Shown here one piece after another: positions 26,653 to 39,759 of a DNA stretch of 39,946 nt (position 1 is its first letter; every line of letters begins with the position of its first letter). The position numbers were made by a program, and so were the translations under genes. This DNA comes from Prochlorococcus sp. AG-402-P18. Lineage in GTDB: Bacteria; Cyanobacteriota; Cyanobacteriia; PCC-6307; Cyanobiaceae. The DNA lies in contig QCJC01000014.1 of the NCBI GenBank assembly GCA_003216275.1, positions 1 to 39,946 on the forward strand, written 5' to 3'. The notes beneath the pieces were generated by a model, which saw nothing but the letters and a program-made list of their open reading frames with translations, had not been told where the DNA came from and ran no database searches.

Positions 26653-27744
26653 ATGCTTAAGGCCGGAATTGTTGGACTCCCCAATGTGGGCAAGTCTACT
26701 TTGTTCAACGCTCTTGTCGCGAATGCTCAAGCTCAAGCAGCAAACTTTCCTTTTTGCACGATTGAACCCAATGTCGGTTCTGTTTCAGTACCTGATCAAC
26801 GTTTGAATTTGCTTGGTGAACTCAGTAAGAGCAAACAAATTGTTCCAACTAAAATTGAGTTTGTTGATATTGCCGGTCTTGTTAAGGGGGCAAGTAAGGG
26901 AGAAGGACTTGGAAATAAATTCTTAGCAAATATAAGAGAGGTAGATGCAATAGTTCATGTAATTAGATGTTTTAGTGATGATGATGTTGTGCATGTATCG
27001 GGATCAGTAGACCCATCAAGGGATATTGAGATAATAAATTTAGAATTAGCTTTGTCTGATTTAAATCAAATAGAAAAAAGAAGAACAAGATTAAAAAAAC
27101 AATTAGCTACTAGTAAGGAAGCGAAGTTAGAAGACGAAATATTAGAGAAGTTAGCTTTAGGATTGGAAAATGAGAATGCAGTTAGGAGTGTTTCATTAAC
27201 TGAGGGAGAGAAAAAATTAATTAAACCATTGGGTTTACTAACTCAAAAACCAATTATTTATGCAACTAATCTTGGTGAGGATGAGCTTGCAAAGGGGAAT
27301 TCTTTTTCAGAAGAAGTAAATATTCTTGCAACTAAAGAAGGTTCTGAATGTGTAAAAATTTCAGCTCAAGTTGAAGCAGAGTTGATTGAATTGGGGGAGG
27401 AGGAAAGAGATGATTATTTAAATGGACTAGGTGTAGAGGAAGGCGGTTTAATTAGTCTAATTAAAGCTACTTATCGATTGCTGGGCTTGAGTACATATTT
27501 CACTACTGGAGAAAAAGAAACAAAAGCTTGGACTATCTCTGACGGCATGACAGCACCACAAGCGGCTGGGGTGATTCATACAGACTTTGAAAAGGGTTTT
27601 ATTCGAGCCCAAACAATTTCATATAAAAAGCTATTGGAAGCTGGATCTTTATCTGAAGCTCGAAATAAAGGTTGGCTAAGAAGTGAGGGGAAAGAATATG
27701 TAGTAAACGAAGGCGATGTTATGGAGTTTTTATTCAACGTATAA
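26653..27744 (+). CDS. ychF: Redox-responsive GTPase/ATPase YchF (Obg-like)
   Basis: YchF is a conserved P-loop NTPase that binds ribosomes and prefers ATP. It has the G1 motif GLPNVGKST (8-16), the switch region with EFVDIAGLVKGASKGEGLGN, the atypical G4 region YATNLGED and a C-terminal TGS domain (GAKVIHTDF equivalent AAGVIHTDFEKGF) ending GDVMEFLFNV. Length (363) is standard. Its 3' end is special here: the last seven codons and about 65 bases beyond are repeated several times downstream, and the repeats are described separately. The protein itself is intact. A 23-codon mini-ORF (26589-26660) overlaps its start, probably by chance. Confidence 0.97.
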   Translation: MLKAGIVGLPNVGKSTLFNALVANAQAQAANFPFCTIEPNVGSVSVPDQRLNLLGELSKSKQIVPTKIEFVDIAGLVKGASKGEGLGNKFLANIREVDAIVHVIRCFSDDDVVHVSGSVDPSRDIEIINLELALSDLNQIEKRRTRLKKQLATSKEAKLEDEILEKLALGLENENAVRSVSLTEGEKKLIKPLGLLTQKPIIYATNLGEDELAKGNSFSEEVNILATKEGSECVKISAQVEAELIELGEEERDDYLNGLGVEEGGLISLIKATYRLLGLSTYFTTGEKETKAWTISDGMTAPQAAGVIHTDFEKGFIRAQTISYKKLLEAGSLSEARNKGWLRSEGKEYVVNEGDVMEFLFNV

Positions 27745-27808
27745 GCATCCAGTCATAGCAAGGGTTTTCAGCGATTTTTATAGCTATTCTAACTTTATTC
27801 TAACTTCT
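27718..27808 (+). repeat. Cassette repeat R0: 3' end of ychF plus right arm (attL-like half)
   Basis: GAGTTTTTATTCAACGT in the last ychF codons is shared with the repeats at 31381 and 32330; 23 bases (27718-27740) are identical to the copy at 31456-31478. The bases after the stop match the right arm of the other copies: AGTCATAGCAAGGGTTTTCA, then TTCTAAC at about 27787 and 27798. The left arm is absent; coding sequence stands in its place. So this is a half site whose left side is ychF. Confidence 0.82.
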
Positions 27809-31292: not shown

Positions 31293-31380
31293 ATTGTATT
31301 GAAATTATGAATGGACTCACTTATTGATAAATCTTCGATCAGTCTTTCTCGTTTCTGCCTCCTTCTTGATAGTTATATCT

Positions 31381-31578
31381 GTTCTAACTTCGTTCTAGTC
31401 TTCTAACTTACGTCTAACCGCGATTTTCGCTTGTAATCGCTTGGTATGACTGGACGTTATGGAGTTTTTATTCAACGTCTAAAAAGTCAGTCATACCAAG
31501 GGTTCTTAGGGGTTAGACTAAGGCTTAGTCTAACAATTTAGTCTAACCTTTTGAGACGAAAAACTTGAGTTTTGAGAC
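31381..31578 (+). repeat. Cassette repeat R1, complete (att-like)
   Basis: The left outer part has TTCTAAC (31382, 31401) and GTCTAAC (31412-31418). Then come the inverted arms CTTGGTATGACTG (31440-31452) and CAGTCATACCAAG (31488-31500), a perfect 13-bp pair. Between them lies an inner pair GACGTT/AACGTC around the ychF 3' end (ATGGAGTTTTTATTC...). The right outer part has GTTAGAC (31512), two GTCTAAC (about 31528, 31541) and two TTTTGAGAC (31549, 31570; 21 bases apart). Similarity to R2 continues to the start codon at 31683. Confidence 0.85.
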
Positions 31579-32329: not shown

Positions 32330-32525
32330 GTCTCAACATGTCTCAAGAATGGTCTAACATTTTGTTGTACTGGTCTAACCCTAAATTATCGCTCAAAATA
32401 TTTGCTATAACTTGATGTATAGGAGTTTTTATTCAACGTATAAGCGTCCTGTTATAGCAGGGGTTCTCAAAAGTTGGAAGAGGTGCTATTCTCACTTTTG
32501 AGACAAAAAACTTTTGTTTTGAGAC
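32330..32525 (+). repeat. Cassette repeat R2, complete (att-like, second subtype)
   Basis: The left outer part has GTCTCAA twice (32330, 32340) and GTCTAAC twice (32352, 32373). The arms are TGCTATAAC (32402-32410) and GTTATAGCA (32451-32459), a perfect 9-bp pair but with different bases from R1. The core GAGTTTTTATTCAACGTATA (32422-32441) equals the ychF end. The right part has TTTTGAGAC at 32496 and 32517, 21 bases apart, which is the inverted form of the left GTCTCAA. GTTGGAA at 32473 takes the place of R1's GTTAGAC. Confidence 0.85.
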
Positions 32526-32586
32526 AGTTTTGTCTTAAGAATCCAGATGTAATTGGTTATTTTTTATTCTGCATAAAACGCTAGAA

Positions 32587-32627: not shown

Positions 32628-33191
32628 ATGCACCGTGATTTGGATAACATAGAAGGACAAAATGCAGGAGGGCAAACAATCAATGAAGTAAAAACATTTC
32701 CAGTTCCGTTTTCTATAGAAGAAAGCAAAGACAATATCACTATTACTACTCATAAGAAACCTTCTATAGAACAAATAATCAATCAAGCGTTTAAGTTTCG
32801 TTCACAAGGAAATCTTTCAGAAGCAGCAAAATATTATCAATTTTTCATAGATCAAGGTTTCAAGGATTACAGAGTTTTTCTTGATTATGGAAAAATACTT
32901 AAAGATTTTTCTCATTTTGATAAGTCAAAAGATCTTCTTGAACAATCAATTAGATTAAAGCCTGATTTAGCTTTGGCTTATTTGTATATTGGCGAGATTT
33001 TATTAATTAAAGAAGATATAGAAAATGCTAAAATATATTTTTTAAAGTCATTAAAAATAGATCCAACTTTATCACTTTCCTGTGCTAATTTAGGTAGTAT
33101 ATTTAAACTTAAAGGTAAGATAGAAGAATCTGATTACTGGAATTCTAGGGCAATTAAAATGGCTACTAGAGCCGAATTGCAAATTATTTAA
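32628..33191 (+). CDS. TPR-repeat protein with the shared N-terminal module
   Basis: This 187-residue protein starts with an unstructured, polar stretch and the module TFPVPFSIEES ... QIINQAFKFRSQGNLSEA (about 23-66). Three TPR units follow (KYYQFFIDQGFKDYRVF, DLLEQSIRLKPDLALAYLY and YFLKSLKIDPTLSLSCANLG). The module is the same as at the start of the TPR-sulfotransferase at 38212, but here the protein ends after the TPR units with no enzymatic domain. It probably serves as a scaffold. Four bases separate it from the dehydrogenase gene, so the two may work together. Confidence 0.8.
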   Translation: MHRDLDNIEGQNAGGQTINEVKTFPVPFSIEESKDNITITTHKKPSIEQIINQAFKFRSQGNLSEAAKYYQFFIDQGFKDYRVFLDYGKILKDFSHFDKSKDLLEQSIRLKPDLALAYLYIGEILLIKEDIENAKIYFLKSLKIDPTLSLSCANLGSIFKLKGKIEESDYWNSRAIKMATRAELQII

Positions 33192-33858: not shown

Positions 33859-33989
33859 ATTTAATAGCTCGCTTGATTTGATAATCAAGGAGATACCATC
33901 ATAACCTTATTTAAAGTTATCCAAACATCTATTTAAAAACCATAAAAATTTCACAGCATTATCAATAGTTGTTTCTTCTCCTTCATTTG
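33859..33989. other. Spacer after the dehydrogenase gene
   Basis: No gene is seen. AT-rich sequence leads into repeat R3; no convincing terminator hairpin. Confidence 0.4.
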
Positions 33990-34186
33990 TTCTGATTTCG
34001 TTCTACTGTTCTAACTTACGTCTAACCGCGATTTTCGCTTGTAATCAGTTGGTATGACTGGACTGCTATGATTTTTCATCCAACGTCTAGAATTTCAGTG
34101 ATACCAAGGGTTTTCAGGTGTTAGATCGAGGCTTGGCCTAACCGTTTATTCTAACTTTTTGAGACATGAAAACTGGTTTTTGAGAC
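33990..34186 (+). repeat. Cassette repeat R3, complete (att-like, first subtype)
   Basis: The left part is nearly identical to R1: TTCTAACTTACGTCTAACCG at about 34009, then GATTTTCGCTTGTAATC. The arms TTGGTATGACTG (34049-34060) and CAGTGATACCAA (34097-34108) pair with one mismatch. The core is diverged (ATCCAACGTCTAG). The right part has GTTAGAT (34120-34126), GCCTAAC, TTCTAAC, and TTTTGAGAC at 34157 and 34178, again 21 bases apart. GTCTAAC (34020) to GTTAGAT spans 107 bases, exactly as in R1. Confidence 0.83.
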
Positions 34187-34221
34187 AGGGTTTTAAATCA
34201 TAAATTATCTAGACAATAAAA

Positions 34222-34236
34222 CAATAATGATTATCG
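34222..34236 (+). promoter_or_regulatory. Fur/Zur-type operator before the cobW-like operon
   Basis: CAATAATGATTATCG matches the 7-1-7 palindrome TGATAATnATTATCA at 11 of 14 positions. It lies just upstream of a TATATT (34252-34257) -10 candidate and about 43 bases before the start codon, so a bound repressor would block the promoter. CobW-like genes are commonly Zur targets, so I favour Zur, but Fur cannot be excluded. Confidence 0.6.
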
Positions 34237-34278
34237 TTTCCGTATTCAGTGTATATTTTACATTGAATTGTGTGCGGT

Positions 34279-35067
34279 ATGGGCAGCAATACGTGGCTGA
34301 TTTCAGGATCGCCAGGCTGTGGCAAAACGAATTGGATCCTTAATAATCTTATTTCACACAAAGGTAGTTGTTGCTTTTTGCGCCTATCTGGTTACGGAGA
34401 TATTGATCAACAGCAAGTAGCTTCTACAGATATTGACTATGCCTTTCTTAAAGATCAAATTCCTCAATTAATAGATTTATCAAGGTCCAGTGCAGACTCT
34501 ATTTCGCATCAAGATGATTCTTTGATATTGATTGAGCTTCCTCAATTTCGAATTCCTAAAGAGCTTGGTTTGGCTGGAATTGATCCGCGCATAATCAAAC
34601 AACTTGCAACTTTCAACCTCGAACCAGATAAATACCTTCATTTTGGACGTGATATGGAATTACCAATTAATGACACATTAAATTTCAATCAAATTGAATC
34701 ATGCAGGTTCAAGCTTCATCGGAATGTTTGGGATCCACCTAGTCTGAATACTTTTTGGTTCGAGCTGGTTAATGGTGCTTATGGAGATGTTTATAGGGCT
34801 AAAGCCTTGATGAATATCCCCGATGGTAGATCTATGTTCTTTAACTGGATTGTTAGTCAAAAAGGTTCGCAATTTTTACCTCTTAATACTGTCTCACCTC
34901 CTAGCGGTAGACCTACAAGAATATCTGAACTTGTTGTTCAAGGGAAAAACCTTGACTCTGTACGAATTGAATCAACTATTCAGCTTTGTCTCTTGAATGA
35001 TTCAGTTTTGGAGCTTCATCAAGCCTCTCTTAGAGATCCACAAATGCAGCCTAGTTATTCAACTTGA
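34279..35067 (+). CDS. CobW/COG0523-like P-loop protein
   Basis: COG0523 proteins are GTPase metal chaperones, often for zinc. Here the Walker A is SGSPGCGKT (about 9-17 from this start) and the Walker B-like strand is LILIELPQFRIPKELG, as in the CobW 'IExxGxxxP' element. The C-terminal part FELVNGAYGDVYRAKALMNIPDG resembles the CobW C-terminal domain. The usual CxCC metal motif is not seen (only SCC near 37-39), nor is a clear NKxD, so it is a divergent member. I start at the ATG 34279; GTG at 34270 is possible. A Fur/Zur-type operator precedes it. Four bases separate it from the phosphoesterase gene. Confidence 0.78.
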   Translation: MGSNTWLISGSPGCGKTNWILNNLISHKGSCCFLRLSGYGDIDQQQVASTDIDYAFLKDQIPQLIDLSRSSADSISHQDDSLILIELPQFRIPKELGLAGIDPRIIKQLATFNLEPDKYLHFGRDMELPINDTLNFNQIESCRFKLHRNVWDPPSLNTFWFELVNGAYGDVYRAKALMNIPDGRSMFFNWIVSQKGSQFLPLNTVSPPSGRPTRISELVVQGKNLDSVRIESTIQLCLLNDSVLELHQASLRDPQMQPSYST

Positions 35068-35071
35068 CGAT

Positions 35072-35887
35072 ATGAAACACGCAGTAATTTCTTGTTTACA
35101 TGCCAATCTCTCAGCAGTGGAAGCTGTGCTAGGCGATATTGATCGGCAAGGAATTGAGACTATTACATGTCTTGGCGACCTTGTTGGCTATGGTCCTCAG
35201 CCAAATGAAGTTGTTGAGCTTATTAGAGATAGGGAGATAGAAACCTGTCAGGGTTGCTGGGATGAAGACATAATTGATGGTCTTGATGCTTGTGATTGCA
35301 GCTATCCATCTCAGCTAGCAGAAAGGCGAGGGCATATAGCTCATCAATGGACAACAGAGAAGTTGACTTATGGAAACAAACAATTTCTAGCCAGTCTCCC
35401 AACATCGATTAGAAGAGGTAGATCGTTTTTCGTACATGGAAGTCCCAACAGTCAGCATGAGTATCTACTTCCAGATATGGATGCATTCGCAGCACTAGAA
35501 CGAGTAGAGATGAGTGGAGCCGATACTTTATTTTGCGGTCATACTCATTTCCCATATGTACGTGAATTAGGTAATGGATCAATTCGCGTAAATATTAAAA
35601 ATGCTTCCGATCGTGAAAGAGAAGTTAAAGAAATGACTTTACCTATTAGAAGAATTGTAAATGTGGGATCTGTCGGAGAACCTCGTCATGGAGGAGTAAA
35701 TGCTACCTATGTTATTTATGACGATATAAATAGTGATGTTGAGATTAGAGAAGTTGCTTACGACATTGATCGAACTTGTAAGGCAATTATTGATGCTGGT
35801 CTACCCCATGTGTTCGCATGGCGTTTGAGCAACGGTTTTGAATTTGCTGAACTGGCTGAAGATGCTAGCCACGTGTGCGAACGATGA
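35072..35887 (+). CDS. Metallophosphoesterase-like protein with altered metal site
   Basis: This has the calcineurin-like phosphoesterase plan, but several ligands are changed. The first motif is SCLHANLSA (Cys8 where D-x-H is usual, His10 kept), then GDLVGYGPQ (Asp36 kept), GCWDE instead of GNHD/E, VHGSP (His kept), GHTHFP (kept), and NVGSVGEPRHG. With the first Asp and the GNH Asn/His missing, normal two-metal catalysis is doubtful; the cysteines could support another metal. The frame is open further upstream, but the family start is the ATG at 35072, four bases after the CobW-like stop. It overlaps the next gene (ATGA). Confidence 0.8.
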   Translation: MKHAVISCLHANLSAVEAVLGDIDRQGIETITCLGDLVGYGPQPNEVVELIRDREIETCQGCWDEDIIDGLDACDCSYPSQLAERRGHIAHQWTTEKLTYGNKQFLASLPTSIRRGRSFFVHGSPNSQHEYLLPDMDAFAALERVEMSGADTLFCGHTHFPYVRELGNGSIRVNIKNASDREREVKEMTLPIRRIVNVGSVGEPRHGGVNATYVIYDDINSDVEIREVAYDIDRTCKAIIDAGLPHVFAWRLSNGFEFAELAEDASHVCER

Positions 35888-36597
35888 TTGAACGTTGGGC
35901 ACTCATAAGTGGTCTTATGGGTGATCTTGAGACCTATGAATTGATTCAAAAAGATTTAAAAAATACTCGCGGAGATATAACTCTTTTTGTTTTAGGAGAC
36001 GTTGTAGGACCAGACAAGAATTGTGATGCACTTTTAAATAGACTAATAAATCCTCATCGTGATGATTTGAAACCAAACTGTATTTATGGCTGGTGGGAGG
36101 AACAATTATTGGCAGAATTAGGTTACCGTGGAGAGAGAAAGTCAGATGCCTTACGACTCAATAAAGGAGACGATGCTGTAATTGCTCTTATAAATGCTGT
36201 TGATCCATATTACTTAGGATGGATATCATCACTTCAATTTGGATTTGTAGAACTTGATTGTGGCTTAATTCATGGAAGTTCGAAAGATGTAGGAGACATT
36301 CTGACAATGCAAACACCTCCACTTACTCTTCTTGATCGAATTACCCGACTTAATGTGAATAGATTATTCACAGCTAGAAGTAAACAGCAATTTCATCTTG
36401 AGTTAACTGATGCTGTAGTTGACTCAAAAATTAAAGATTTAAATGAAGAACGAAACCAGGAGCATACTCTTCCTAAACGTGCAGTCATAGGAATTGGAGC
36501 AGGGGCTAATTACACTCTTTATGACGTTGGAAGTGATAAGACTCACTTCCTAACGGTTTCTGATGTCACTAAATCCAGAGGGCTTGGATTCGCGTAA
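35884..36597 (+). CDS. Degenerate phosphoesterase-like protein
   Basis: This 237-residue protein is a more eroded relative of its upstream neighbour. SGLMGDLETYELI stands in for SDIHGN, VLGDVVGPDKN for GDxxG, YGWWEEQLL for GNHD, LIHGSSKDVG for the His motif, and LFTARSKQQFHLE for GHTH, so most metal ligands are gone. It is probably non-catalytic, for example a partner of the preceding protein. I choose the ATG at 35884, whose ATGA overlaps the previous stop, over the GTG at 35875. It is the third gene of the operon behind the Fur/Zur-type operator and the last before R4. Confidence 0.72.
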   Translation: MIERWALISGLMGDLETYELIQKDLKNTRGDITLFVLGDVVGPDKNCDALLNRLINPHRDDLKPNCIYGWWEEQLLAELGYRGERKSDALRLNKGDDAVIALINAVDPYYLGWISSLQFGFVELDCGLIHGSSKDVGDILTMQTPPLTLLDRITRLNVNRLFTARSKQQFHLELTDAVVDSKIKDLNEERNQEHTLPKRAVIGIGAGANYTLYDVGSDKTHFLTVSDVTKSRGLGFA

Positions 36598-36649: not shown

Positions 36650-36755
36650 ATCTCAAGGTGTCTCAAAAATGGCCTAACTTTTTGTGGTATTGGCCTTACC
36701 CTATATTATCGCTCTAATAAGTTCCTATGACTTGAGGTATAGGAGTTTTATTGTC
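36650..36755 (+). repeat. Cassette repeat R4, left half only (attR-like)
   Basis: The left part follows R2 closely: (A/G)TCTCAA at 36650 and 36660, GCCTAAC at 36672, GCCTTAC at 36693, ATTATCGCTC, then CTATGACTTGAGGTATAGGA and GTTTTATT. After about 36753 the similarity stops: no AACGT, no right arm, no TTTTGAGAC. The half site is the mirror of R0, which has only the right side. Confidence 0.78.
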
Positions 36756-36888: not shown

Positions 36889-37506
36889 TCATTCACAATT
36901 CTCCTTTAGTAATTTCTTTGCTTCTTCATCGCCCAGATTTACTGCTTTTCTCCAGTCTTCGCATGCACTTTTTATATCACCAACTTCTTTTTTTAAATTG
37001 GCACGATTAAAAAAGGCATCTGAGTCCTTAGGATTGATTTTTATAACTTGTGAATAATCATCAATTGCTCCAACAAAATCCCCCATTTTGTACTTTGCAC
37101 TTGCTCTATTGAAATATCCATCTACATATAAAGGATCAAAACCTAATGCTTTGTTTTGATCGTCTATGGCTCCATCAAAATCACCTAAATTACGTTTGGC
37201 ATTGCCTCGCATTGAGTAGATAAGGCAAATCTCAATGGGTGAAAGTCCCAATGCTTTGTTGTAGTCAAGTATTGCCCCTTCATAATTCGCAACTTCGAAT
37301 TTATCTTGTGCTCTATTAAAGAAGTATTCGTAATTTTTTACCTTTTTATTTGGATCATCTTCATCTCTTAGAGCAATCATTAAACCTGCGCCTATAACTA
37401 CGGCAGTTGATCCGATGACTAGGTTTTTATTAACTTTCATAAGAGACATGCCGATAGCAGTCGCAATACTTACTCCCAAAGCAATCGCAGTATTGTGGAG
37501 TTTCAT
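36889..37506 (-). CDS. Membrane-anchored TPR protein
   Basis: The 205-residue protein has two hydrophobic stretches at the N-terminus (about 6-22 and 28-46), then four TPR-like units from residue 57: YEYFFNRAQDKFEVANYEGA, IYSMRGNAKRNLGDFDGAID, YFNRASAKYKMGDFVGAIDD and FFNRANLKKEVGDIKSACED. The GDFxGAIDD wording is that of the TPR genes at the left of the window. It may hold partner proteins at the membrane. It starts three bases after the nuclease stop, on the same strand, so the two are probably one transcript. Confidence 0.82.
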   Translation of the reverse strand: MKLHNTAIALGVSIATAIGMSLMKVNKNLVIGSTAVVIGAGLMIALRDEDDPNKKVKNYEYFFNRAQDKFEVANYEGAILDYNKALGLSPIEICLIYSMRGNAKRNLGDFDGAIDDQNKALGFDPLYVDGYFNRASAKYKMGDFVGAIDDYSQVIKINPKDSDAFFNRANLKKEVGDIKSACEDWRKAVNLGDEEAKKLLKENCE

Positions 37507-38211: not shown

Positions 38212-39759
38212 GTGGATAGTAGAAAAAAAAATGATTTTTCTAGCAAGAACCAAAGGAAAAGAGTAACTACATTTTCAGTTCCAATCTCTTTAGAAGAGAA
38301 CATTTATAATTCTATCGACAATCCTTTACAGCTTTCTAAAGAACAAATAATTAAACAAGCTTTTAGGTTTCATTCACAAGGAAATATTTCAGAAGCTGTA
38401 AAATATTATCAATATTTTCTTAATCAAGGTTTTAATGATCATCGAGTTTTTTCTAATTATGGGGTGATTTTAGGTGATCTCGGTAAATTAGAAGAAGCAG
38501 AATTATTACAACGCAAAGCAATTGAATTCAAACCTGATTACGCAAATGGTCATTATAATCTAGGAAACACTTTGAACAATCTTGGTAAACTAGAAGAAGC
38601 AGAATTATTACAACGCAAAGCAATTGAACTTAAACCTGGTTTTGCAAAGGCTTATTCAAATCTAGGCACAGTATTAAGAGGACTTGGAAAACTAGAAGAA
38701 GCAGAATCATCACATCTAAAAGCATTGGAACTCAACCCTGATTTAACTAAAACCTACTATGCTTTGTCGATACTTAAATGTACAGATAATAAAAAAGGAT
38801 GGCAAGATAAACTCTTTTCATTGGAAATTTTAAATAATAAATCAAAAGAAGATCAGATTGATATTTACTTTGCTAGAGCAAACATCCTACATAAGGAACA
38901 AAATTACGATAAGAGTTCTAAATTCCTCCACTTAGCAAATGAATTGAAACTTGAGTTAGCAAAATCTCAGGCTGATTTACTAATTAAAAAATCTAAAGTA
39001 TTACTTGATGTATCTGGTGAGGAAGAAATTATAGATAAAAATTATAAAAACTATTCTGAAAATATTTTTATTGTAGGAATGCCAAGAAGCGGTTCTACAT
39101 TATTAGAATCTATCCTTAGTATGAATAGCGATGTTGATGACCTGGGCGAAGTCAACTTTCTTGAGGAATCATTCTTAGAATATAAGAAAAAGAATGAAGG
39201 GTTAACACTTGCTGATTTGTATTTGCAAAAAGTTAAAAACAATAATAAGCAATCCTCTGTAAAGACTAATAAATGGCTATATAACTTTCAATATGTAGGT
39301 ATTATTGCAAATAATATACCCAATGCCAAAATTATTCACTGTTATAGAAATCCTTTAGACAATATTTTATCTATATATAGAACGCAGCTTGCTAAAGGAA
39401 ACGAATATTCATCTTCCTTAATTGATTGTGCAAGAGTTTATTTAAATCAAGAGGAGGTAATGAATAAGTATAAAAATAGATTTCGATCAATAATATATGA
39501 CTTAAATTATGATTTATTAGTGATTGAACCTAGTCGTGAAATCAAATCATTAATCGACTGGTTGAAATGGGAATGGGACGATTCATATCTTTCTCCGCAC
39601 TCTAATCAACGCTTAGTTTCAACAGCAAGTAGTGTTCAAGTTCGTTCCCCAATTAATTCAAAATCTGTTGGAGGTTGGAAGAACTATAGAGAGATGCTTC
39701 ATCCAGCTATTGAGATTTTAGAAAAACATGAAAAATATAAGAACCTGAAATTCTCGTAA
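38212..39759 (+). CDS. TPR-repeat sulfotransferase
   Basis: The N-terminal half begins with the shared module (TFSVPISLEEN ... QIIKQAFRFHSQGNISEA) and at least four TPR units to about residue 190. The C-terminal half is a sulfotransferase: the PAPS loop IFIVGMPRSGSTLLES at 285-300 and the 3'-phosphate site CYRNPLDNILSIYR are present. It should transfer sulfate from PAPS to an unknown acceptor, perhaps a surface polysaccharide or protein. Two TPR units are nearly identical in DNA (38482 and 38584; one difference in 45 bases), a sign of recent duplication. The start is GTG at 38212; the frame is closed upstream by TGA at 38182. AGGA lies only two bases before it. Confidence 0.88.
   Translation: MDSRKKNDFSSKNQRKRVTTFSVPISLEENIYNSIDNPLQLSKEQIIKQAFRFHSQGNISEAVKYYQYFLNQGFNDHRVFSNYGVILGDLGKLEEAELLQRKAIEFKPDYANGHYNLGNTLNNLGKLEEAELLQRKAIELKPGFAKAYSNLGTVLRGLGKLEEAESSHLKALELNPDLTKTYYALSILKCTDNKKGWQDKLFSLEILNNKSKEDQIDIYFARANILHKEQNYDKSSKFLHLANELKLELAKSQADLLIKKSKVLLDVSGEEEIIDKNYKNYSENIFIVGMPRSGSTLLESILSMNSDVDDLGEVNFLEESFLEYKKKNEGLTLADLYLQKVKNNNKQSSVKTNKWLYNFQYVGIIANNIPNAKIIHCYRNPLDNILSIYRTQLAKGNEYSSSLIDCARVYLNQEEVMNKYKNRFRSIIYDLNYDLLVIEPSREIKSLIDWLKWEWDDSYLSPHSNQRLVSTASSVQVRSPINSKSVGGWKNYREMLHPAIEILEKHEKYKNLKFS

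Follow-up and report, generated by a model that had tools for sequence, protein, structure and literature searches.

Zinc is very scarce in the habitat of marine picocyanobacteria. FolE2 and HemB2 are regarded as zinc-saving substitutes. The closest described systems to the locus presented here are the Zur regulons of cyanobacteria, namely those of Anabaena 7120, Synechococcus 7002 and WH8102, with which it shares, as far as the available excerpts of the published accounts go, the operator box, znuABC, COG0523 genes and paralogues of folE, hemB and thrS. For WH8102, the accessible part of the report gives a Zur regulon of eight genes (PMC9337993). At the protein level, the nearest relatives are the COG0523 proteins (CobW, YciC, ZagA and YjiA), which are G3E P-loop metallochaperones, and the metallophosphoesterases of the 3RQZ/SapH group (Metallophos_2).

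The window, that is, the whole stretch of 39,946 nucleotides that was analysed, belongs to a Prochlorococcus assembly of 1.85 Mb with a completeness of 96.9%. It contains three consecutive genes, termed A, B and C, which are preceded by an operator of the Fur/Zur type. What appears to be new is a very probably Zur-controlled zinc-scarcity operon made of an unusual set of proteins. The available excerpts of the regulon studies do not mention an intact A-B-C as one entity, and the copy in PCC 7002 is broken. Likewise, neither full-text literature searches nor the accessible parts of the Zur and COG0523 papers yielded an account of the three genes as a set, although this set may be listed in regulon databases, and none of the terms sought is present in the Prochlorococcus zinc-toxicity paper PMC8374608.

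Operator and operon of the trio

Gene A (34279..35067, plus strand) encodes a P-loop protein with a CobW_C domain and without a CxCC motif. Its ATG at 34279 agrees with the start in relatives, the GTG at 34270 being an alternative only. Gene B (35072..35887, plus strand) encodes a metallophosphoesterase homologue with cysteines at the metal-ligand positions 8 and 62 and with Trp63 replacing His or Tyr, and gene C (35884..36597, plus strand) a paralogue of B that lacks the DxH, GN and GHxH metal motifs (pseudo-phosphoesterase). The coupled three-gene operon proposed in a sequence-only reading of the window is thus present, with all genes on one strand and B and C overlapping by 4 bases. The nine closest named sequences of A are all from Prochlorococcus (93–95% identity). 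In comparison with five relatives, A, B and C are under purifying selection, with dN/dS values of 0.07–0.35 (Nei-Gojobori, 14 of 15 comparisons computable). A phage origin was rejected, since A and B have no relatives in viral contigs and B has none in phage records.

Upstream of gene A, the palindrome CAATAATGATTATCG occupies positions 34222..34236 (no strand assigned) and constitutes a Zur-box-like operator according to a znuA-trained matrix and to its conservation. The near-consensus 7-1-7 palindrome named in the earlier reading is therefore found as claimed: 11 of 14 positions correspond to the consensus TGATAAT-N-ATTATCA, and the arms are symmetric at 6 of 7 positions. A weaker box of 9.8 bits overlaps it at 34228–34242. 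Scanning of the window with the znuA-trained matrix places the site at 34222–34236 on top with 13.5 bits, followed by a site at position 2067 with 12.7 bits. That the box is striking on its own was rejected, as an equally good site appears in 7 of 20 mononucleotide-shuffled windows, and a plain pattern search in this AT-rich genus gave no excess over the reversed control (14 matches versus 16 in genome G000). The box is significant because it is conserved and not by its sequence alone. The hexamers at 34210–34237 obtained in a generic promoter scan overlap the box; promoter-like sites of this kind are no commoner than chance, and the promoter and terminator scan of the window was uninformative.

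For training the matrix, only znuA promoters were used, namely the best box in front of this gene from each of 18 zinc loci that were fetched. All 18 boxes match the consensus at at least 11 of 14 positions, the scan being confined to the znuA genes of these loci. With this matrix, 52 of the 60 trio promoters from the taxonomic family display a box of at least 8 bits, compared to 27 of 537 control upstream regions; since the family loci include close relatives, these counts are not independent. The controls are upstream regions of mechanically called open reading frames of at least 120 residues in 40 of the family loci. Locus L034 was left out of the count due to a too short upstream stretch, and nine short loci (L008, L009, L011, L013, L016, L024, L025, L029 and L033) were replaced by refetches with longer flanks. 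Several of the top-scoring controls are regions in front of a COG0523 gene that heads a trio operon.

The eight trio promoters lacking a box (L054, L056, L057, L060, L062, L063, L069 and L074) have one feature in common: a canonical COG0523 gene, encoding both P-loop and CxCC, abuts or overlaps the start of A. Shortly upstream of the start candidates of this COG0523 gene, a box of 15.7–19.8 bits is found in all eight operons, accompanied in L069 by a second, weaker one (12.8 bits) farther upstream. The position of the box hence tracks the first gene of the operon. In genome G061 (locus L068), where C is located about 7 kb beyond B, an exact box precedes A-B as well as the lone C.

On the scale of whole genomes, TGAGAATGATTCYCR with at most one mismatch occurs at 2–7 sites per genome on both strands of ten larger family genomes, versus 1 in all ten for the reversed control. 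The sites are located before the trio in 9 of the 10 genomes, before znuA in 9 of 10 and before a COG0523 gene in two. Further TGAGAATGATTCYCR sites lie elsewhere, including one near a CN-hydrolase gene and, with one mismatch, one near a ferritin gene. Two checks suggested together with the earlier reading, namely the same operator at znu genes and conservation in other picocyanobacteria, both turned out positive: the operator matches the boxes of the zinc-uptake genes, and trio and operator are both kept.

Outside the family, 23 loci were inspected, comprising 20 fetched and mostly better-scoring loci and three plasmid loci. A box of at least 14 bits is situated within 300 bp of A in 12 of them; among the remaining 11, ten display a box 0.5–4.2 kb upstream of A, a longer stretch that was scanned without control, and one displays none. 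The operator is most plausibly interpreted as a Zur (zinc) box rather than an iron box.

When 201 genomes of the family were sampled, 73 turned out to contain a relative of A, including 46 of the 131 good genomes, so that its presence is patchy. Where A occurs, it is seldom alone. In the family analysis, which covers 61 of the 73 positive genomes, B follows A in 60 of 61 loci and is itself followed by C in 59; L061, with an interrupted A and without B and C, and L068 with its relocated C deviate from this order. Across the phylum, a search with a profile of A was positive for 70 of 292 genomes, 53 of which lie outside the family. Twenty of these 53, chiefly better-scoring ones, were fetched, and A-B-C are consecutive with gaps below 200 bases in 17. 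The other three comprise a locus without C, whose contig ends about 1 kb further on, a locus with C about 2.8 kb away and a locus with A alone. Outside the family, the sequence identity amounts to 56–61% over the full length for B (19 loci), 33–42% for C and 25–39% for A. The trio A-B-C accordingly occurs across the cyanobacterial phylum.

The surroundings of the trio include genes related to zinc. Among 40 family loci, a canonical COG0523 gene is located nearby in 11 and a ZnuA-family gene, confirmed by Pfam, in 6; a seventh ZnuA candidate, a 116-residue fragment in L038, gave no Pfam match. Other clusters of neighbours are permeases (7 loci), ATPases (5) and WD40 proteins (4), each checked by Pfam on one member. 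COG0523 genes are also found near the trio in 9 of 20 loci outside the family. On plasmids, the trio adjoins folE and hemB in PCC 73109, lies near thrS and the gene of a GTP-binding protein in T. variabilis, and adjoins thrS, folE and genes of GTP-binding proteins in Dolichospermum. Laboratory strains carrying an intact trio include Picosynechococcus PCC 73109 and Trichormus variabilis ATCC 29413. The neighbours of the trio point to zinc.

Proteins A, B and C

Protein A shares the P-loop, a conserved glutamate (Glu89), the CobW_C domain, the YjiA fold of the C-terminal domain and the zinc context with the COG0523 metallochaperones. In contrast to these, it has no CxCC, rarely an NKxD motif, a length of only about 260 residues, and B and C nearly always adjoining. 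The P-loop (Walker A) is present in 83 of 84 A sequences and Glu89 in all 84. With E<=0.1 as limit, CobW_C is recognized in all but one of 29 members of A (28 of 29; best value 2.3e-7), with protein A of the window scoring 19.9 bits, which is under the 22-bit cut-off. CxCC is found in none of the 84 sequences and a match to [NT]KxD in two, whereas the three canonical COG0523 proteins examined from the same genome all contain CxCC and two of them [NT]KxD.

For the AlphaFold model of A (pLDDT 83.6), Foldseek yielded three significant matches, all of them E. coli YjiA and two in a zinc-bound form, with a poor fit of the whole chain (TM 0.30). In a re-alignment with VIA, A and YjiA superimpose with a Z of 10.2–10.3 over 95–96 residues, the good fit being confined to the C-terminal domain, while the N-terminal half mostly resembles SRP-type GTPases at a middling Z of about 6–8. 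The relationship of the C-terminal part to canonical COG0523 proteins is also seen by hhalign (E 5.7e-7); when A and C were searched against the PDB by sequence alone, the matches were confined to P-loops and to chance. The designation CobW-like is hence appropriate with respect to the CobW_C domain and the P-loop and inappropriate with respect to the metal motif and the NKxD-like motif, whose frequencies of 0/84 and 2/84 led us to reject A as a true CobW/COG0523 GTPase. By its motifs, A is a COG0523 derivative without the metal motif.

In family and fold, protein B is a calcineurin-like metallophosphoesterase; the canonical ligand set of that class (DxH, GD, GN[HD], H and GHxH) is not preserved. 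Profile searches assign it to Metallophos_2 (8.9e-19) and to 3rqz (5.9e-27), which also ranks first in Foldseek and shows 31–32% identity in the fold alignment. Next in rank is the asymmetric Ap4A hydrolase SapH (3qfm). The model of B is of moderate quality (pLDDT 72.6), with values below 50 at residues 64–82, 124–135 and 258–271.

The prominent feature of B is a recoded metal site. Cys8 and Cys62 are present in 82 of 82 cyanobacterial sequences, whereas Asp and Asn occupy these positions in all six non-cyanobacterial relatives that form the outgroup, so that DxH is changed to CxH and GN[HY]D to GCWD in 82 of 82. Residue 63, which corresponds to the catalytic histidine of GNHD, is Trp in 82/82 cyanobacterial and Tyr in 6/6 outgroup sequences. 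The ligands His10, Asp36, His122, His157 and His159 are kept. In addition, Cys155, Cys236 and His206 are found in 82/82 sequences versus 1/6, 0/6 and 0/6 in the outgroup, and Cys269, which lies beyond the outgroup stretch compared, likewise in 82/82. Overall, 111 of 271 positions are conserved to at least 97% over the 82 sequences, and the motifs HGSP, GHTH and GSVGEPRHG are near-invariant.

Thiolate ligands are unusual for the metallophosphoesterase class. According to the ligand assignment of the superfamily, each metal in B would presumably be coordinated by a cysteine and two histidines, in addition to the bridging aspartate. Such a site would be of the N2OS type and thus zinc-like, this type being called typical for zinc in SynZur in the accessible part of the report (PMC9337993).

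Protein C is homologous to B (hhalign probability 98.7%). It is devoid of DxH, GN and GHxH, retains one Asp and one His, and appears from its sequence to be a metal-dead paralogue of B. The notion of two degenerate phosphoesterases consequently applies to C and is misleading for B, where mere degeneration was rejected in view of the cysteine-recoded metal site, the other ligands kept and the strong conservation.

Probable zinc response and possible function

Expression data are available for a promoter that we identify as orthologous. In Synechococcus PCC 7002, hemB-II, folE-II, G0131 and G0132 are up both upon deletion of zur and with TPEN, according to the accessible part of the report, where G0131 is annotated as GTPase-like and its divergent neighbour G0132 as FAD oxidoreductase (PMC4628125). 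The same part indicates no rise in the zur mutant for G0129 (phosphoesterase) and G0130 (no homologues), and a rise of iron-limitation genes with TPEN (PMC4628125). Because of the latter, TPEN alone cannot split zinc from iron, and the zur mutant represents the cleaner test.

Plasmid pAQ7 contains three open reading frames between folE and the FAD gene. Behind a perfect TGATAATTATTATCA, the first 147 residues of A are preserved with 99% identity to A of PCC 73109. Of C, only the last 130 residues remain, and B was sought on pAQ7 and not found. Based on gene order, as the locus tags differ, we equate G0131 with the broken A and G0129 with the remnant of C, G0130 being the open reading frame between them. 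If G0131 is the truncated A, the promoter of the trio operon is Zur-repressed and chelation-responsive in PCC 7002. The silent G0130 and G0129 would then, in our reading, represent debris, with B lost and A and C broken, and the orphan-like appearance of genes in the Zur cluster published for PCC 7002 may be explained by their being leftovers of a trio operon.

Comparative evidence and the published data on the orthologous promoter together indicate that the trio is very probably switched on at zinc shortage, and repression of its operon by Zur can be assumed with high confidence. The metal-limitation operon under a Fur-family operator, as originally proposed, is upheld, and zinc and Zur can be specified as metal and regulator on the basis of the znuA motif, the association of the box with the operon head, the zinc-related neighbours and the zur and chelator data of PCC 7002. 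When zinc is plentiful, zinc-loaded Zur bound to the box at 34222 would block the promoter, whereas a drop in zinc would lead to joint production of A, B and C. B may then provide a metallophosphoesterase fold with a recoded two-metal site that carries zinc, C, as a metal-free paralogue, would probably be its structural partner, and A could act as a nucleotide-binding, NTP-dependent partner that loads B or unloads its zinc. A complex of the three might capture scarce zinc and allocate it to essential clients, beside ZnuABC and the canonical COG0523 chaperones. Such a zinc-handling complex for zinc scarcity is the most likely role of A-B-C, with a biochemistry that we infer. The explanation as a whole, a Zur-repressed zinc-starvation operon with zinc-handling A-B-C, is given a probability of roughly 0.6.

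Considered by itself, the choice of a zinc-handling over a signalling-enzyme role is evenly balanced. B could still be an enzyme, as residues capable of metal binding occupy all of its di-metal positions and conservation is high. The operon would then be Zur-controlled as well, with B as a phosphodiesterase that depends on zinc and has a stress nucleotide as substrate, for instance a dinucleoside polyphosphate, C as its regulatory subunit and A supplying or sensing the nucleotide; metabolism would be adjusted to zinc scarcity and zinc would not be moved. This alternative, which gains from the rank of SapH among the closest folds of B, from the near-invariant motifs and from thrS and folE adjoining the trio on plasmids, is rather unlikely in view of the invariant Trp in place of the catalytic histidine and of the atypical thiolate ligands. 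Moreover, no substrate is indicated, and a zinc enzyme made at zinc scarcity would be counter-intuitive.

B might also be a zinc-saving replacement in the manner of FolE2 or HemB2, a substitute phosphoesterase that relies on a different metal and steps in for a failing zinc enzyme. Zinc-free paralogues are frequent in Zur regulons, as stated in the published excerpts available, and the trio adjoins folE and hemB genes. However, B has gained rather than lost thiolate ligands, which favours zinc-like metals, and A and C, its near-constant companions, would be left unexplained, making such a replacement improbable. Control by iron, with the operator serving as a Fur box, is very improbable: Fur-family boxes are alike, G000 encodes Fur and a second FUR-family protein, TPEN induced iron genes as well in the available PCC 7002 data (PMC4628125) and one single-mismatch site lies near a ferritin gene, but the znuA-trained motif, the neighbouring zinc genes and the published zur-mutant data all stand against it.

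Zinc handling by A-B-C, the preferred reading, may be extended tentatively to a hitherto undescribed, phylum-wide zinc-allocation machine, in which B would be a thiolate di-zinc carrier by virtue of its two cysteines, C a metal-dead copy and A a CxCC-less COG0523 driver, together forming a new class of zinc chaperone; this extension is doubtful. The strong conservation of an operon with a zinc-type box, which is present in Prochlorococcus as well as on plasmids of filamentous cyanobacteria, hints at a component still lacking from the picture of how zinc is shared out within the cell. The trio moreover allows a specific test of whether two cysteines converted an enzyme fold into a protein that handles metal.

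Flanking repeats

The trio is flanked by intergenic repeats (no strand assigned). The left copy, at 33985..34186, is 81% identical to 31377–31578, and the right one, a partial copy at 36651..36749, is 83% identical to 32331–32429. Related intergenic repeats of the window are located at 27715, 31377, 32331, 33985 and 36651. In 11 sibling loci, homology around the trio starts at 33981–34150 and stops at 36664–36752. The trio directly follows the gene of window positions 26653–27744 in 8 of these 11 loci, and in two sibling loci the genes of window positions 28–31 kb are situated downstream of the trio and not upstream.

These observations bear on the putative mobile cassette of the earlier reading. 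Among close relatives it is supported, since two repeat copies in one orientation bracket the trio in the siblings G056 and G086; it does not extend to G130 of the same genus, where the repeat copies lie away from the trio, nor to the module as such, which is phylum-wide. The 21-base core of the repeat has no match in three genomes outside the genus and 1–4 matches in each of seven genomes within it. Within the genus, the majority of the trio copies examined are located in a repeat-flanked cassette.

Zur-type boxes in the zinc cluster and in a relative

Elsewhere in the window's own genome, a zinc cluster on contig C5 (locus L195, 3400–9786) encodes, by Pfam, a second FUR-family protein, which is likely Zur, together with ZnuA, a COG0523 protein and a WD40 protein. 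Further ORFs of the cluster are read as putative znuB and znuC, and znuA is preceded by the box TGAAAATGATTATCG. In the relative genome G061, gene C of the trio, the paralogue of the metallophosphoesterase homologue B, stands alone about 7 kb past B (locus L151, about 1501–2369) and has an exact Zur-type box of its own. An exact TGAGAATGATTCCCA box is also situated immediately 5' of a CN-hydrolase gene of G061 (locus L160, 1501–2575), which could represent a new Zur target.

Repeats and TPR genes around the trio

The cassette genes in the window are bounded by dispersed intergenic repeats with matched stretches of about 60–200 bp, found at five places (27715–27776, 31377–31578, 32331–32560, 33985–34186 and 36651–36749). 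A 21-base core occurs in 7 of 7 genomes of the genus at 1–4 copies per genome; it brackets the trio in two siblings and does not do so in G130. Possibly, these repeats serve as points of recombination in a cassette array. Adjoining the trio is a TPR protein (36889–37506, minus strand), and a TPR-sulfotransferase protein (38212–39759, plus strand) is a further neighbour. Window positions 32762–32890 and 38334–38462 have 83% in common across 129 bases.

A broken trio on pAQ7

Plasmid pAQ7 of Picosynechococcus PCC 7002 carries a broken trio (locus L338, 18717–20488) in which gene B was not found. Gene A, which encodes the P-loop and CobW_C protein, breaks off after 147 residues, only the last 130 residues of gene C are retained, and a separate 236-aa ORF is positioned between both remnants.
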